Part shown: piece by piece, positions 1,897 through 9,330 of the stretch
Layout of the letters: each line of letters starts with the position of its first letter
How positions within the stretch are numbered: position 1 is the stretch's first letter
Assembly (NCBI GenBank): GCA_002796835.1
Contig: LUGL01000091.1
Location: 1 to 38,316, forward strand
DNA from: Elainella saxicola E1
GTDB taxonomy: Bacteria; Cyanobacteriota; Cyanobacteriia; Elainellales; Elainellaceae
DNA length: 38,316 nt
Direction of reading: 5' to 3'
Made by a program: the position numbers and the translations under genes
The notes under the pieces: generated by a model
The model's input: the letters and a program-made list of their open reading frames with translations, nothing else
What the model was told of the DNA's origin: nothing
The model's database searches: none

Positions 1897-2892
1897 TTAC
1901 AAGGACTTTTGACTAGAAGAAACTCCCTGTTTCGAAAAACCCGTCAATTTCTGCGCTGCAAAATCCCAAAAAACGATCGATTCATCAGACGATCGCAAGA
2001 CCAACTGCGAATGGGCCTGGACTTCTCCAACTTCTGCACACACTAAATTCTGCCGTTGAAACTGGGATTGCACCGTGGCAGCCTGCTCTGGTCGAACGCT
2101 CAGCAAAAAGCCATAGCTGGGAAAGCTAATCAACCAGCGATCGAGCGATAGTTCAGTCGGGCAGGGAATGCGATCGAGATTGAGAACGGCACCGCAGCCA
2201 GAGGTTTCCAGCAGCATTAACAGCGTGCCGATGATGCCGCCCATGCTGATATCTTTGCCTGTGTCACACTGACCCGTTTCAGCCAGATAGGGCAAGATGG
2301 CTAGATTCTCGCGAAGCTGCATTGGATCGGCAGTTGTGGCCGCATCCCAAAACGGATATTTTGGATGAGGTTTACCGCGTAGATCGATCGCGACCAATAA
2401 CCGATCGCCCGGTCGCGCATTAAAACTGGTGATTAAATGGTTAGCTCGGCCCAGGATTGCTACCGACAGCGCATTGTAAGGACTATGGCAGTTGGTGTGG
2501 CCACCGACGATCGGCACATTAAACGCCTGAGCTGCGGCTTTCATACCGTCCCATAATAACTGCGTATCGGTTGTATTTTGGCTCCACAGGGCATCGACAA
2601 CGGCGATCGGTCGGCCTCCCATCGCATAAATATCGCTAACGTTCACCATAATGGCGGACCATCCGGCAAACCAGGGTTCCGTTTCGACCAGCAAAGGCCA
2701 CATTCCTTCTGCTGCCAGCAGCAAATAGCCCTCACTATCGGGAATTGCCGCACAGTCATCACCCAGCAAAATGTCACCCTTGGATAAAGTCGAAGCCACC
2801 CGCGATCCTAAGGTTTGCGAGGCAGTTTGAATGTCCTGCTTTTGCAGCCAGCTCAGCGATTGTTGAAGTTGGGCGGTCAGACTAGCCAACAT
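1897..2892 (-). CDS. nitF: Sll0787-family AIR synthase-related protein (Nit1C cluster, NitF)
   Basis: A 331-residue member of the PurM/AIR-synthase-like superfamily, in the Sll0787 family found only in Nit1C-type clusters. The ATP-binding N-terminal half shows GDDCAAIP (the DD motif that binds Mg-ATP) and MVNVSDIYAMGGRP. The middle shows VGGHTNCHSPYNALSVAILG. The C-terminal half carries KDISMGGIIGTLLMLLE. Relatives of this fold (PurM, ThiL, SelD, HypE) activate a substrate with ATP. The actual substrate here is unknown. Its start overlaps the nitE stop (TAATG), indicating translational coupling, and it is the last gene of the cluster. Confidence 0.85.
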   Translation of the reverse strand: MLASLTAQLQQSLSWLQKQDIQTASQTLGSRVASTLSKGDILLGDDCAAIPDSEGYLLLAAEGMWPLLVETEPWFAGWSAIMVNVSDIYAMGGRPIAVVDALWSQNTTDTQLLWDGMKAAAQAFNVPIVGGHTNCHSPYNALSVAILGRANHLITSFNARPGDRLLVAIDLRGKPHPKYPFWDAATTADPMQLRENLAILPYLAETGQCDTGKDISMGGIIGTLLMLLETSGCGAVLNLDRIPCPTELSLDRWLISFPSYGFLLSVRPEQAATVQSQFQRQNLVCAEVGEVQAHSQLVLRSSDESIVFWDFAAQKLTGFSKQGVSSSQKSL

Positions 2893-3404
2893 TAAGACGC
2901 CTCTCTGGTTTGGCGAAGAACAGGACGCAGTTCATTGCCTGCTGGATAAAAATTTAGATCCGCCTGCATCAAGTGGTGAGGCCGATCGCAAATCGTGATT
3001 TCTTCCAAAGATTCCCAGTGCAGCCGCTGAAAGAACCGCACATTTTGTAATTGAACGGTGGCCAGAAATCGATCGCAGCCCCAGGTATTGGCAGTCGTGA
3101 CAGCTTTGTAAATCAAGCCTTTGCCGATTTGCCAACCTTTGCGGTAATCCGGATGCGTGCCCAATCTGCCGCCATACCAGAGTCCAGGTTCCGACTCATA
3201 GATGCGAACGACACCTACGATCGGCTGAGTTGCCACAGTTTGATCGATCGCCACGATCGGATAGGCATATTGATCGATCTCATCCACATCAGAGGTGGGA
3301 AATAGCCCCTGTTCCTGACAAAAAATTAACTGCCGCAGATTAAAGTAAGCCTCGATTTCAGGGGCAGCAACCGCTAATTCAAAACGATACGGTCGATCGG
3401 TCAT
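2892..3404 (-). CDS. nitE: MSMEG_0567-type GNAT acetyltransferase (Nit1C cluster, NitE)
   Basis: A 170-residue N-acetyltransferase-fold protein of the family found in Nit1C clusters (Sll0786-like). It starts RPYRFELAVAAPEIEAYFNLRQ and continues IFCQEQGLF, followed by VGVVRIYE and GGRLGTHPDYRKGWQIGKGLI, a typical acetyl-CoA-binding motif A (R/Q-x-x-G-x-G/K). The ATG at 3404 is chosen because AGGAA lies upstream. A longer frame to 3452 would run into the nitD coding end. There are 13 bases between it and nitD, and its stop overlaps the nitF start. The acceptor molecule is unknown. Confidence 0.82.
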   Translation of the reverse strand: MTDRPYRFELAVAAPEIEAYFNLRQLIFCQEQGLFPTSDVDEIDQYAYPIVAIDQTVATQPIVGVVRIYESEPGLWYGGRLGTHPDYRKGWQIGKGLIYKAVTTANTWGCDRFLATVQLQNVRFFQRLHWESLEEITICDRPHHLMQADLNFYPAGNELRPVLRQTREAS

Positions 3405-3417
3405 CGTTGAATCATTC

Positions 3418-4527
3418 CTATTCAAAATTAGCAAGGGCTGAGCAGGCCCCACATTTGGCGCATCCTGCTTTGATCTCGGCAGAAGACATTCCCGATCGCT
3501 TCAACATTCCTCCTACTTTTTCATAGAGCGTAAACATGAATTCACTCTTCGGAGCGGGATGATTCGCCAGCGGTGTTCCCGTAATCGGTACGAAAGGTAC
3601 CACAAATGGATAGACTCCCATTTGAATCAATCGATCGCTCATATCCAACAGCGTTTCTAAGCTATCTCCTAGACCTGCTAGCAGATAGGTACTAACCTGT
3701 CCCCACCCAAACACCTGCACTGCGGCTTCAAATGCCTGGAAATAGTAATCTAGTGGCACAGAAGCCTTACCCGGCATGATTTTTGCCCGCACTTGTGGAT
3801 CTGCCGCTTCCAGATGCATTCCCAAACTGTCTACGCCTGCGGCCTTCATTCGATCGAACCAGATGAAATCGTCCGGCGGTTCGCATTGCGCTTGAATCGG
3901 CAAATCGACTTTGGCTTTAATCGCTTTCGCACATTCGGTTAAATAGGCCGAGCCGCGATCGCTGGTATTTGGTGTTCCCGTGGTCATCACCAAATGTTTC
4001 ACGCCGTCCAGCCGCACTGCTGCTTCTGCCACTTCAGCCAATTGAGCAGGTGTTTTGCGAGCAATGGTACGACCGGCTTCCAGCGATTGACCGATCGCAC
4101 AAAACTGACAGGATGTGGCGGCATCGTTATAGCGCATGCAGGTTTGCAGCACCGTGGTTGCCAACACATCGCGGCTGTGCAGCAGGGCAATTTTCCAATA
4201 GGGAATGCCGTCTGCTGTGCTTAGACTATAGAACTTGGGTTGTTCTGGAAAATGGATTTCTGAAATCGCTTCTCCATCCCGTTCCAATACTAAAGGTTCG
4301 ATCGGTGAATGCTCCAAAAGCGCAACCGACGAATTTCGAGTGACCGTATAGGGAGATTCAGCAGCAGAACTATTGAAAATGGGCACCATCACGGTCGTTC
4401 CTTCAATGATCACGGCTTTGTGATCGGATGGACCTGCGCCACCTTTTCGTCCAGAGGCTCCTTGCTCATCGGTAATCAACTTCAACCCGTGCGATTGAAG
4501 CTCGGTAATTAATTGCTGTTTATTCAT
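3418..4527 (-). CDS. nitD: MSMEG_0568-type radical SAM protein (Nit1C cluster, NitD)
   Basis: A 369-residue radical-SAM-family protein. The cluster-binding cysteines are C130, C140 and C143, spaced C-x9-C-x2-C and not the usual C-x3-C-x2-C. This wide spacing is read directly from the sequence. A C-terminal C356-x2-C359-x2-C362 group (GCAKCGACSALANFE) could bind a second iron-sulfur cluster. The central part shows MTTGTPN and other barrel strands. Members occur with the nitrilase and the GNAT protein in Nit1C clusters. The reaction is unknown. A 152-bp gap containing a 20-bp palindrome separates it from nitC. Confidence 0.85.
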   Translation of the reverse strand: MNKQQLITELQSHGLKLITDEQGASGRKGGAGPSDHKAVIIEGTTVMVPIFNSSAAESPYTVTRNSSVALLEHSPIEPLVLERDGEAISEIHFPEQPKFYSLSTADGIPYWKIALLHSRDVLATTVLQTCMRYNDAATSCQFCAIGQSLEAGRTIARKTPAQLAEVAEAAVRLDGVKHLVMTTGTPNTSDRGSAYLTECAKAIKAKVDLPIQAQCEPPDDFIWFDRMKAAGVDSLGMHLEAADPQVRAKIMPGKASVPLDYYFQAFEAAVQVFGWGQVSTYLLAGLGDSLETLLDMSDRLIQMGVYPFVVPFVPITGTPLANHPAPKSEFMFTLYEKVGGMLKRSGMSSAEIKAGCAKCGACSALANFE

Positions 4528-4679: not shown

Positions 4680-5696
4680 CTAAGCATCGATCGCAAGTGG
4701 TGAATCAGGGAACGTTGGCAGCATTGCCGCATTCATTTTTTCAGCCTGATCGGCAGCATTCACACTCGAATCATTGATCAAGGTCCGGGCATCTCGATTG
4801 ATTTGAAGTTGCAGCAAATCTGGACGCGAGTAATGGCCGACTGAATCCATCATGCGTTTCCGCTTGGTGATCAGGGAAAAGTCCAGATCGGCGATCGCCA
4901 TTCCTTCGCCTTCCGTGATCGGGGGACAGAGGTGATTGCCTTCGGGACCAATAATGGCCGTATTACAACCGCCGCTCAAAACGCGCTGCAATTTCTCATC
5001 AGAGGTGATTTGCTGCACCTGTTCGGGCGATAACCATCCGGTGGAATTCACGACAAAACAGCCGGACTCCAGCGCATGGTGGCGAATCGTGACCTCAATT
5101 TGATCGGTAAAAATCTGGCCGACCAAAGAACCGGGAAATTGGGCGCAGTGAATTTGTTCATGCTGCGCCATTAATGCAAACCGGGCCAGCGGATTGTAAT
5201 GTTCCCAGCAGGCCAATGAGCCAACTTTACCGACTGCTGTATCTAACACTTTCAGTCCCGATCCATCCCCCTGCCCCCAAACCATGCGCTCATGATAGGT
5301 GGGCGTAATCTTGCGGCGTTTCAGCAACAATGTCCCATCTGCGTCAAAAATCAGCTGCGTGTTGTATAGCGATCCATTCTCCCGCTCATTCACCCCTAAG
5401 ACCACCACCATGCCATAGGAACGAGCCGCCCGACTGACCGCATCCGTAACTGGACCGGGCACTGTCACCGCTTCCTCATATAGCCGCATATGCTCTTTGC
5501 CCATCAAAACGGGCGGTTGCACAAACGAAAAATAGGGGTAATAGGGAATGAAGGTTTCTGGAAAAACAATCAGCTGCACACCTGACTGGGCCGCTTGAGC
5601 GATCGCCTGCAACACTTTTTCGGTGGTGCCATCGCGACTAAACAAAACGGGGCTAAGCTGGACTGCTGCTGCGCGAATGGTTCGTGAGTAATCCAT
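4680..5696 (-). CDS. nitC: Nit1 subfamily nitrilase (Nit1C cluster, NitC)
   Basis: A 338-residue carbon-nitrogen hydrolase. The catalytic triad is visible: E47 in [14 protein letters not shown]129 in [20 protein letters not shown], and C163 in [19 protein letters not shown]. These surrounding sequences are those of true nitrilases and differ from amidases. The enzyme hydrolyses a nitrile, R-CN, to acid and ammonia. In Nit1C clusters of other bacteria NitC is required for growth on cyanide as nitrogen source. Start at the ATG beginning [17 protein letters not shown]. It lies 95 bp downstream of nitB, and that gap holds a hairpin. Confidence 0.93.
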
Positions 5697-5791: not shown

Positions 5792-6274
5792 TTACAAAGT
5801 CCAGGTATCGAGAATGAATGCGCCATCTTTACGATGCAGCAAAATCAAATCCAACACATCTAAGGGATTAATGGGGCGAATGCCAGGAATCAGCGAAGGT
5901 TCACCATGGCCATAAAGCGCTTGCAGCGCAAAACGACAGGCATAGACCTTGCCCCCTTCAGCCATAAATTTGGTGATCTGATCATTGAAATTCTGGTGGC
6001 CAGGAAACGCAGAATCTCCAAGCTTGGGAAAACCGCGCTGCACACCCAGCGTCACACCCGGACCATAGAGCAGCACCGAGGTTTCAAAGCCTTTGCGCTG
6101 CAGACGGGTAGCTTGCAGCAAATTCACAAAACCGATCGATCCTTCAAACGCAACGGTATGGAAAGTGACGAGTGCCTTCTCACCCGGTTCCGCCTTGACA
6201 TCGGGAAATACTTTCTCTTCGTAGTCAACTAGAAAATCGCCAGTTTGATGAGCGGGAGCGGTTACTTCAGGCAT
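5792..6274 (-). CDS. nitB: Sll0783/MSMEG_0572-family nitrogen-starvation response protein (NitB)
   Basis: A 160-residue protein of the Sll0783/MSMEG_0572 family. It contains [18 protein letters not shown], then [20 protein letters not shown] and [13 protein letters not shown], and looks like a DsrE/DsrF-type fold. In Synechocystis, Sll0783 is strongly induced by nitrogen starvation and is needed for normal polyhydroxybutyrate accumulation. The biochemical role is unknown. The ATG has an excellent AAGGAG upstream. It is the first gene behind a perfect NtcA-type promoter (6300-6342), which fits nitrogen control seen directly in the sequence. nitC, nitD, nitE and nitF follow on the same strand. 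Confidence 0.88.
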
Positions 6275-6299
6275 GACTTTCTCCTTAAAACGTGTTGCA

Positions 6300-6342
6300 A
6301 GATTACGAGTTTGCAGAATGTAAAGTTTGTATCTCTGACTAC
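6300..6342 (-). promoter_or_regulatory. NtcA-activated promoter of nitB
   Basis: On the minus strand, GTAGTCAGAGATAC (6342-6329) is a perfect GTA-N8-TAC NtcA box. After 23 bases comes TAATCT (6305-6300), matching TA-N3-T, and the start codon follows 25 bases later. This is the classical class II arrangement, where NtcA replaces the -35 element. A start site near 6293 is expected. This is established consensus matched by direct reading; binding is not proven. Confidence 0.85.
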
Positions 6343-6437: not shown

Positions 6438-6469
6438 TGAGAGATACAATATGAATTCTGTAGCGAATA

Positions 6470-7753
6470 CTACGAACCTAACAGAAATTCATTCACAATA
6501 CTCCAGGCGTTGGTGTGGACCGTTCTCGTGCGAGCCACAATGTAATCAGCCAGATAGTTGGCATCTCTGGCAATCCCGGAGAATCGACCTGAACCCCAGG
6601 TGTAGAGCCAGGGTAGCCCCAAGAAATAGAGGCCGCGCACACCAGTCACTCCTCGTTCATGGCCGGGATAACCTTTGCCGTCAAAGACCGGCACTTCGAT
6701 CCAGCTAAAATCAGATTCGTAGCCCGTACACCAAATTACGGCTCCAATATTCGTCTGCTGATAATCCAGGGCCAGCACCGCTTCAGTTGGCTCCCAGATA
6801 GGCTGATATTCCGGCTCAACTGGGGCATCGATCTGATGTTTAGCAATAAATTTATCGATCGTCTGCTTGATACTTTCGGCCACTGCATCAGCCTGATCGA
6901 GGTTTTGCTTCAAATCATTGTGGAATTCCAGGATGTTGCCGCTCACCTGCTTTAATCGGCCATGCAGCTGCATCCCTTCCAGGGCAAACTGCCGCAAATC
7001 AATTTCACGACCTCCATCTCGTCCCGTTACGTAGTGATTGGCTTTAGTGCGGACCTTTTCCTTCTGGGGATGCTCATCGATCGACAGATCGTAATACCCC
7101 ATTTGATCCAGCCAATCCACCACATCTTTGCCGCGATAGCGTCGGGGCGATCGGGGTGCGCCACCCACACAGAGATGGACTTGTTTTCCAGCAAGGTGTA
7201 AATCTTCAGCAATTTGGCAGCCTGACTGTCCCGTACCAACGACTAAGACACTGCGATCGCCTACCTGTTCAGGATTTCGATATTCCGACGAATGTAGCTG
7301 CAAAATAGATTCTGGCAGTCGTTCGGCAATTCTAGGAATTTTTGGTTTGTGATAGCCTCCAGCCGCAATCACTACCTGATTCGCAGTATAGTCCCCGATC
7401 GAAGTGGCGACCTCAAACACTTCCAGTTCCTCACTCAGGCGGACGCTCAACACCTCCACACCTTCTTTGATGGGGGGATTGAATGAGGCAGCGTATGCCT
7501 CGATATACTGAACGATCTCGTCTTTTTTCATGAATCCTTGCGGATCATTGCCCGGATAAGGATAGCCAGGGAGTTGGCATTGCCAATTTGGCGTCACGAG
7601 ACAAAACGAATCCCATCGTTTAGAGCGCCAAGCATACCCAATTTGATGCTTCTCGAAAATTAGGTGATCAATTCCTCTTTCGCGCAAGGCATAACTTATG
7701 GATAGCCCAGCTTGGCCACCGCCAACAATAATGACTGAGAAGTGATTCGTCAT
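6470..7753 (-). CDS. nitH: MSMEG_0569-type flavin-dependent oxidoreductase (Nit1C cluster, NitH)
   Basis: A 427-residue flavoprotein monooxygenase of the family found in Nit1C clusters. The N-terminal FAD-binding motif is VIIVGGGQAGLSISYAL (GxGxxG variant). A second Rossmann motif, VLVVGTGQSGCQIAEDL near residue 170, binds NADPH. The C-terminal region has VIWCTGYESDFSW and GLYFLGLPWLYTWGSGRF. The overall architecture is that of class B monooxygenases, which act with NADPH and O2. It may prepare or oxidise the nitrile or cyanide-derived substrate; this is inference. It has its own NtcA-like promoter (7787-7829) and lies 195 bp upstream of nitB. Confidence 0.88.
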   Translation of the reverse strand: MTNHFSVIIVGGGQAGLSISYALRERGIDHLIFEKHQIGYAWRSKRWDSFCLVTPNWQCQLPGYPYPGNDPQGFMKKDEIVQYIEAYAASFNPPIKEGVEVLSVRLSEELEVFEVATSIGDYTANQVVIAAGGYHKPKIPRIAERLPESILQLHSSEYRNPEQVGDRSVLVVGTGQSGCQIAEDLHLAGKQVHLCVGGAPRSPRRYRGKDVVDWLDQMGYYDLSIDEHPQKEKVRTKANHYVTGRDGGREIDLRQFALEGMQLHGRLKQVSGNILEFHNDLKQNLDQADAVAESIKQTIDKFIAKHQIDAPVEPEYQPIWEPTEAVLALDYQQTNIGAVIWCTGYESDFSWIEVPVFDGKGYPGHERGVTGVRGLYFLGLPWLYTWGSGRFSGIARDANYLADYIVARTRTVHTNAWSIVNEFLLGS

Positions 7754-7786: not shown

Positions 7787-7829
7787 AGATTATGAGGGGA
7801 AAGAAACTGTGTTCTGTGCTGAACATTAC
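7787..7829 (-). promoter_or_regulatory. NtcA-like promoter of nitH
   Basis: On the minus strand, GTAATGTTCAGCAC (7829-7816) is GTA-N8-CAC, one base off the NtcA consensus. It is followed after 23 bases by TAATCT (7792-7787), exactly the spacing and -10 hexamer of the nitB promoter. The bases from -10 onward also match nitB at 16 of 18 positions (TAATCT-x-GCA-x-CACGTTT). Confidence 0.65.
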
Positions 7830-7905: not shown

Positions 7906-9330
7906 CTAAATCCATCCGTTTAAAATTGCCTGATGAATTGCCTGGTAGCGAGTGCGTACTTTCAGTTTGGTCAACACGTTATTCATATGAAATTTGACAG
8001 TGCTTTCGCTAATAATTAAATGCTCAGCAATGTCGCGATCGCGATATCCCTGCGTTAGCAAAACCAGAACTTCTAACTCCCGCTCTGAGAGTACCTGGCC
8101 TGAAGGCTCCGATTCCACCCCCCATTGCTGATCTTGCATGACTGTCGCCACCACTTCCTGCAACTGCGCTGGATCGATCGACAAATCCACTTTAGCCTGA
8201 ACCCCTTTAGGGACTGCCTGGTTTCCCTGCTGAATCCAGATCACCCGTTTTGCAGCAGCGGCTTGAACCGGATCATCTGTGAATAAAACAACGTCGATAT
8301 CGTCAGTAGGGCAAATCGTAAACCCTGCCGAAACAGCCAGGTGGATAAAGGCACATTGCAGCAAGGGCAAACGGCAACGAATTCTTAGGGCCTGATTAGA
8401 GCGATCGCGTCCGTAAGGCAGTTCGACCATCACCTGAAGCGCTCGTTGATCGGGGCTAATTTGAGTTTGCAAGACTCCACCTAACCCAGAAACAGTGGGC
8501 AACAGTTCACAAGAGAGAGAGTCCATCCAGTGCGTCGCGATCGAACTAGCTGCCAGAGTGGGCACGAGCGCTTCCAGCACCACTGATTCTTCCCCATAGC
8601 TGAGGCGACAAGACGCCCGCCCCATTTGATTCAGCAACTCAGCCGCCTTCAGAAAAACATAGACCACAGTCAAGCTGAGCGGTCTTTCCGTTCCAACCAG
8701 CGTCAAGCGAGTGGTGCTAAGCATGCTAACTAGCTGTTCTGAGAGGGGCAGATCGCTAAAAATCGGACGATGGTTAGTCACTTGCCAGAGGCGCTTTTCA
8801 CTTTGGTAGCGTACGGCGGTATCTAGAACGATCGCCACTGTAGTGCAAAGCGTCTGCAACACCTCCAGAAATTCCGGCTCCATCGCATGATGGCTGAAGG
8901 TGGCCAGCACGCCCACCACCTGATCTTTAATTGCCAGAGGATAACCCGCAAATCCCCGAATATCATTGGCAATTGCCCAATCTCGATTCCCCACCCAGGA
9001 TTCCGCCGCCAAATTATTGCTGAGAAAAGACACACGATTTTGAGCAATCTTGCCCACTTTATAAGCGCCCAGGGGAATGCGACCAAAAAAACCGTCCGTG
9101 TGGGTATACATTCCTGCCGAGGCCACCAGTTTAAGAATTGTCTGATCCGGCTCTAGCAACCAAATGCGAGCAAAGGCAACGCCAAATTTTTCGACTAATC
9201 CCTGCGTCACCTGCTGCGCGATCGTCTCCGGCTCTAAACAGCCAGAAAAACCTTGCACGATCTCGTTCGCCTGTTGCAAATCAAACAGGATACGCGGTAG
9301 GTTGAGAGATCCTGTCAGAGAGTCAGGCAT
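7906..9330 (-). CDS. GAF-domain LuxR-family transcriptional regulator
   Basis: A 474-residue cytoplasmic regulator. An N-terminal GAF domain (about residues 18-175) includes FGVAFARIWLLEPDQ, then VGNRDWAIANDIRGFAGYPL and VGVLATFS. A long middle part has no recognised domain. The C-terminus is a LuxR/NarL helix-turn-helix: LSERELEVLVLLTQGY, then IAEHLIISESTVKFHMNNVL and TKLKVRTRYQA. GAF domains bind small molecules, haem or NO-type ligands. No receiver domain is present, so control is probably by ligand. Its place directly upstream of nitH, in the same direction, and the paired dyads near nitH and nitB suggest it controls the cluster. The cluster's usual nitA regulator is otherwise absent from the window. 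Confidence 0.85.
   Translation of the reverse strand: MPDSLTGSLNLPRILFDLQQANEIVQGFSGCLEPETIAQQVTQGLVEKFGVAFARIWLLEPDQTILKLVASAGMYTHTDGFFGRIPLGAYKVGKIAQNRVSFLSNNLAAESWVGNRDWAIANDIRGFAGYPLAIKDQVVGVLATFSHHAMEPEFLEVLQTLCTTVAIVLDTAVRYQSEKRLWQVTNHRPIFSDLPLSEQLVSMLSTTRLTLVGTERPLSLTVVYVFLKAAELLNQMGRASCRLSYGEESVVLEALVPTLAASSIATHWMDSLSCELLPTVSGLGGVLQTQISPDQRALQVMVELPYGRDRSNQALRIRCRLPLLQCAFIHLAVSAGFTICPTDDIDVVLFTDDPVQAAAAKRVIWIQQGNQAVPKGVQAKVDLSIDPAQLQEVVATVMQDQQWGVESEPSGQVLSERELEVLVLLTQGYRDRDIAEHLIISESTVKFHMNNVLTKLKVRTRYQAIHQAILNGWI

Follow-up and report, generated by a model that had tools for sequence, protein, structure and literature searches.

An NtcA class II promoter predicted upstream of nitB in the Nit1C gene cluster of Elainella saxicola E1, and its counterparts in other cyanobacteria

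The window analyzed here – the whole 38,316-nucleotide stretch of Elainella saxicola E1 DNA – carries a Nit1C cluster, together with a regulator gene that adjoins nitH. In order of coordinates, the genes are:

1897..2892, minus strand: nitF, Sll0787 family AIR synthase-like protein (TIGR04049)
2892..3452, minus strand: nitE, Sll0786 family GNAT acetyltransferase (TIGR04045)
3418..4527, minus strand: nitD, MSMEG_0568 family radical SAM protein (TIGR04043)
4680..5696, minus strand: nitC, Nit6803-type nitrilase (TIGR04048)
5792..6274, minus strand: nitB, Sll0783/MSMEG_0572 family nitrogen starvation response protein, 160 aa (TIGR04044)
6470..7753, minus strand: nitH, MSMEG_0569 family flavin-dependent oxidoreductase (TIGR04046)
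7906-9330, minus strand: GAF-LuxR type regulator gene, adjoining nitH

The genes nitB, nitC, nitD, nitE and nitF are adjacent and on the same strand, with nitH nearby, upstream and on that strand as well, which is the arrangement by which a Nit1C cluster is recognized. The same nitBCDEF families make up the Nit1C operon sll0783-0787 of Synechocystis PCC 6803, although the two layouts differ in points that can be drawn from passages of the Synechocystis literature. There the flavoprotein gene is divergent (PMC1199592), whereas in the window nitH stands before nitB on the same strand; and there ssl1464, which by its place we take to be nitG, lies in the operon (PMC10094980), whereas nitG is absent from the window's cluster and the only match to it in the genome (TIGR04042) is on another contig, C209. 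That nitG gene and the end of an MSMEG_0565-type glycosyltransferase gene overlap (L147:5844-7287), and no class II site, even with one box mismatch allowed, was found in the 8,172 bases around the relocated pair.

Reading toward nitB, the leader contains the following elements:

6342-6329, minus strand: NtcA box of nitB, GTAGTCAGAGATAC, an exact GTAN8TAC, read directly
6328-6306, minus strand: 23-nt spacer between the NtcA box and the -10 box
6305-6300, minus strand: -10 box of nitB, TAATCT, which fits TAN3T
6286-6281, minus strand: ribosome-binding site of nitB, AAGGAG
6274-6272, minus strand: ATG of nitB

An NtcA class II promoter is described, in the relevant passages of PMC3898017 and PMC9430850, as a GTAN8TAC box with a TAN3T -10 box at class II distance, and the nitB leader has both, with TAN3T falling 23 nt downstream of the box and thus within the 22-24 nt of the class. 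A preliminary description of this DNA had listed GTA-N8-TAC, 23 bases, TA-N3-T and a strong ribosome-binding site in that order before nitB, and direct reading shows it to be exact. The -10 box places the predicted transcription start near 6293-6294. These are the same sequence elements as in the canonical class II promoters of glnA, nirA and urtA, only the target being different, and the segment 6342-6300 is a well-supported predicted NtcA class II promoter and an ordinary member of a known promoter class.

How often such an arrangement might arise by chance depends on how much of it is required. The GTAN8TAC box alone is not above chance in the 38-kb window, where it occurs three times against 2.0 expected (at least three in 32 of 100 shuffles). 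When the whole class II arrangement is required, with the box followed after 22-24 nt by TAN3T, and both strands are scanned, the window has a single exact instance, and a sample of 305,790 bases drawn from 20 contigs of the genome has two, of which one precedes ntcA; in any given 150-nt leader about 0.0005 exact arrangements are expected. Arrangements with one mismatch in the box are frequent, numbering 45 in the 305,790-base sample and eight in the window. The other exact palindromes of the window, at 6473-6460 over the nitH stop codon and at 6739-6726 inside nitH, were rejected as promoters because neither has TAN3T at 22-24 nt on either strand; the one at 6460-6473 could be a secondary NtcA site or a chance occurrence.

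The genome encodes a single NtcA match over the family cut-off (TIGR03697, 390.6 bits), and its glnA leader carries an exact class II arrangement. No class II site was found at four glnA-like paralogue loci or in three amt leaders, two of which have a box without a -10 box and the third no box.

Conservation was followed in a locus set that combines the best 80 of 463 NitB-similarity matches, 27 over-cut-off matches from 386 genomes of the phylum, and the window, less five loci that duplicate the window or other members of the set (L082, L083, L089, L090 and L091). Six phylum matches below the cut-off (L108-L110 and three without loci) and five partial or broken family matches (L173-L177) were also left out, four loci with doubtful labels (L012, L014, L021 and L024) are counted separately in the NtcA counts, and the nitB start of L154, L165, L167, L171 and L093 was set by profile match. 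Among the 44 cyanobacterial loci of this set that are not picocyanobacterial, the best 80 of 463 matches included, 33 have an exact class II site within 500 nt before nitB (28 within 150 nt and 30 within 300 nt); in shuffled 300-nt leaders of the 44 loci a site was present in 0.07 on average and in at most one in any of 300 rounds. Only one of the four doubtful-label loci has an exact nitB site, namely L021, a contig labelled Tatlockia that is probably misbinned, since in the NitB+NitC tree it forms a pair with a cyanobacterial locus (SH-aLRT 100).

The window's own family gives a similar picture: nitB over the cut-off is present in 25 of its 36 genomes, and 24 of the loci are usable. An exact site stands in 18 of these 24, and the number rises to 22 when one box mismatch is allowed. 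By comparison, nitB passes the family cut-off in 27 of the 386 genomes drawn from the phylum. Both other members of the genus in which nitB was found have exact sites, with box interiors that differ. When the sets are combined (again including the best 80 of 463 matches), an exact nitB site is seen in 47 of 63 distinct loci and one with at most one box mismatch in 55 of 63, counts that are not of independent events, the loci being kin. The exact site is thus absent in 16 of the 63 cyanobacterial loci, and even a one-mismatch site in eight; for four of these eight (L015, L018, L107 and L160) nitH was not found in the locus, so that a nitH site is no explanation. L015 has a one-mismatch site at -503.

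The geometry of the site is more constant than its surroundings. Of the 33 loci with exact sites, 15 have a 22-nt spacer between box and -10 box and 18 a 23-nt one, while the nitB ATG lies anywhere between 68 and 466 nt away. Pairs of loci share on average 47% identity in the 40 nt upstream of the site and 34% in the 20 nt that follow the -10 box, with more than 60% upstream identity in 42 of 528 pairs; with flanks so diverged, most of the sites are not recent copies.

The nitB site is accompanied by another before nitH, for which the elements in the window are:

7816..7829, minus strand: degenerate NtcA box of nitH, GTAATGTTCAGCAC, with one mismatch (TAC to CAC; GTA-N8-CAC)
7787..7792, minus strand: -10 box of nitH, TAATCT, separated from the NtcA box by 23 nt and from the ATG by 33 nt

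A one-mismatch match alone proves little, as 45 arise by chance in 306 kb; the position of this one, together with the exact sites seen in relatives, makes a class II site likely. Away from the 500 nt before nitB, the 44 loci were scanned as 2655 segments of 300 nt, 27 of which hold an exact class II site, and a site-by-site listing for these loci gives 27 further exact sites, of which 25 stand before nitH as judged by the start of the next ORF; the remaining two are a reverse reading of the nitH box in L076 and an unrelated site in L067. The gene is testable in 30 of the 44 loci (11 are without nitH and three lack its start), and within the 250 nt scanned an exact site precedes it in 24 of the 30 and one with at most one mismatch in 27 (set including the best 80 of 463 matches). 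Two of the three nitH genes without a site have leaders of only 33 and 51 nt (L084 and L087), and in L034 the site lies beyond 250 nt. Exact sites are present at both nitH and nitB in 19 of the 30 testable loci, nitH sites occur both when nitH is divergent and when it is in tandem, and no class II site precedes nitH in any of 32 proteobacterial-group loci. Four tandem loci have a site at nitH and none at nitB: L042, L043 and L076 (Xenococcaceae), with 58-97 nt between the end of nitH and nitB, and L067 (Pleurocapsales), with 186 nt; the nitH site is exact in L043 and L076 and has one mismatch in L042 and L067. At 7829-7787 the window would accordingly have another class II site, weaker than that of nitB, and nitH is probably co-induced with nitB. 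The preliminary account of the promoter therefore holds for nitB and is incomplete, having missed the site that nitH has of its own.

Downstream of nitB, the genes nitB-C-D-E-F, where present, are collinear in all 34 of the long cyanobacterial loci, and scanning the 160 nt ahead of nitC (34 loci) and of nitD (32 loci) gave no exact class II site at either gene. Terminator-like sites in the region are at chance level (9 versus 9.6), with none listed between nitH and nitB, nitB and nitC, or nitC and nitD. Given the collinearity, the lack of internal class II sites at nitC and nitD, and the lack of listed terminator-like sites, read-through from the nitB promoter into nitC-F is likely, and the earlier proposal that NtcA control extends through nitB to the nitrilase genes is plausible. 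The product of the GAF-LuxR gene at 7906-9330 is a candidate second regulator. A relative of this gene lies upstream of nitB in four of 43 other cyanobacterial loci (L002, L013, L042 and, in part, L011), many of the loci being too short to show it.

The proteobacterial counterparts of the cluster present a different promoter. Passages of PMC11049912 describe the nit1C cluster of Pseudomonas CECT 5344, whose homologous nitB-H genes serve cyanide assimilation and which is adjoined by a gene for a Fis-type sigma-54-dependent regulator, NitA; in contrast, the window has an NtcA site and no strong sigma-54 element (at best 8 of 12 positions of the GG-N10-GC / TGGCACG-N4-TTGCW consensus within 400 nt of nitB), and its genome yielded no rpoN-family match. 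An exact class II site before nitB was found in none of 41 proteobacterial-group loci, one Polyangiaceae MAG (L071) among them, in the set that includes the best 80 of 463 matches. Of 44 loci, comprising the 41 of the proteobacterial group and L012, L014 and L024 (set including the best 80 of 463 matches), 37 have a sigma-54-like element matching at least 10 of 12 positions no more than 400 nt from nitB, against a mean of ∼1.5 of 44 in shuffles; none of 44 cyanobacteria or 14 picocyanobacteria has one. The proteobacterial elements stand mostly 50-130 nt before nitB. In a NitB+NitC tree of 101 loci, made by a quick method with midpoint root and no bootstrap, a single change accounts for the NtcA and sigma-54 states, with loci having neither site not counted, and the split has an SH-aLRT of 90. 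One Nit1C cluster thus appears to be wired to different regulators in cyanobacteria and proteobacteria. As for a local NitA in these loci, a GAFTGA/GSFTGA motif was found in 0 of 81, the proteobacterial ones included (flanks of 6 kb or less; all but the two shortest locus sets), and Pfam searches of 10 upstream ORFs, some of which may be spurious, returned GntR-aminotransferase regulators in four and nothing in six.

The loci that we label picocyanobacteria – Synechococcus loci L060 and L061 and the 12 loci L095-L106 (family code f19), which form one clade – have an exact nitB class II site in 0 of 14 and a nitH class II site in one of 14, with one mismatch. Aligned, their nitB leaders show two conserved GT-N10-AC-like stretches, ∼60 and ∼120 nt before nitB, and a consistent TAN3T was not seen; the stretches possibly represent a diverged NtcA arrangement. 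Comparably degenerate NtcA promoters have been proposed for marine Synechococcus WH7803 in a passage of PMC9430850. Taking these distributions together, we think it fairly probable that the wiring of Nit1C changed where its tree divides into cyanobacteria and proteobacteria, with a sigma-54 promoter on the proteobacterial side and NtcA class II promoters on the cyanobacterial one (usually one on nitH and one on nitB, kept whether the genes are divergent or tandem), with picocyanobacteria in a third, divergent state, and with control by nitrogen status kept through exchanged master regulators.

We are highly confident, on sequence grounds, that the nitBCDEF operon has an NtcA-activated class II promoter whose core is 6342-6300. 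A shortage of combined nitrogen would raise 2-oxoglutarate, and NtcA would bind the box, which is centered ∼41.5 nt before the predicted start. PipX helps NtcA, and may do so at the nitB promoter as well. Bound NtcA would recruit RNA polymerase to TAATCT, and transcription from about 6293 would read nitB and then, by the expected read-through, nitC-F, with nitH probably induced together with nitB from the weaker site at 7829-7787. Dependence on 2-oxoglutarate is known for other NtcA sites (PMC3898017, in the passages concerned) and is presumed for the nitB box. Nitrogen shortage very probably switches the cluster on, given that the NtcA site is a textbook one and also stands before nitB in about three-quarters of the related cyanobacterial copies examined. 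The NtcA control of nitB predicted in the preliminary description is supported by the NtcA gene, the class II arrangements on glnA and ntcA, and the contrast between 47 of 63 cyanobacterial and 0 of 41 proteobacterial-group loci; the arrangement is, however, widespread in non-picocyanobacterial cyanobacteria and nothing special to the strain.

The most serious competitor to this account is one in which nitB-nitF are transcribed mainly from the nitH promoter, with the nitB site secondary. The four loci that have a site at nitH and none at nitB fit such an arrangement, as does the window's nitH-nitB gap of 195 nt with no terminator-like site listed in it; but in the window it is the nitB site that is exact and the nitH site that has a mismatch, and exact sites are retained at both genes in 19 of 30 testable loci, so that we regard this arrangement as unlikely. 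That the nitB site is a chance match, nitB being controlled otherwise, for instance by the GAF-LuxR regulator (7906-9330), might be suggested by the ordinary frequency of the box alone in the window and by the relatives of that regulator upstream of nitB in a few other loci (4/43, one partial); yet the exact full arrangement, for all its rarity (2 in 306 kb), stands before nitB in 47 of 63 loci, and we hold this reading to be very improbable.

Equally improbable, in our judgment, is that NtcA binds the site and represses or only modulates nitB, with another factor as the activator. Some genes are indeed repressed by NtcA, nirP1 being an example in a passage of PMC10907346, but the 22-23 nt spacing in all 33 exact sites is the activator arrangement given in PMC3898017, and the Synechocystis homologue rises in nitrogen starvation (PMC3901256, in the part that concerns it). 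This induction of sll0783, invoked in the preliminary description as agreeing with an NtcA promoter, is a published one, and the response of the homologous Synechocystis operon, which is induced by nitrogen starvation (PMC3901256) and repressed by ammonium (PMC10094980), speaks for the NtcA account. Activation by NtcA is the preferred reading, although NtcA may not act alone, since in Synechocystis the operon's repression by ammonium depended also on the protease Slr1821, according to passages of PMC10094980.

The Synechocystis NtcA regulon is given as 79 genes in the portion of PMC10907346 that lists it. Within partial coverage of the literature on NtcA with sll0783, nitrilase or cyanide, a published statement of an NtcA site on the Nit1C cluster was not found, and the NtcA-Nit1C link may already be in print. 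What the present analysis adds is the conservation of the site, the paired promoter on nitH, and the contrast with sigma-54 in proteobacteria.

The Sll0783 family member of Synechocystis is needed for bioplastic accumulation. The promoter described here would place that family, and with it cyanobacterial assimilation of cyanide and nitriles, under NtcA by way of a testable site, and would add nitH to the same control. It would also provide a case in which one metabolic cluster has kept its nitrogen control while the regulator was exchanged between phyla.
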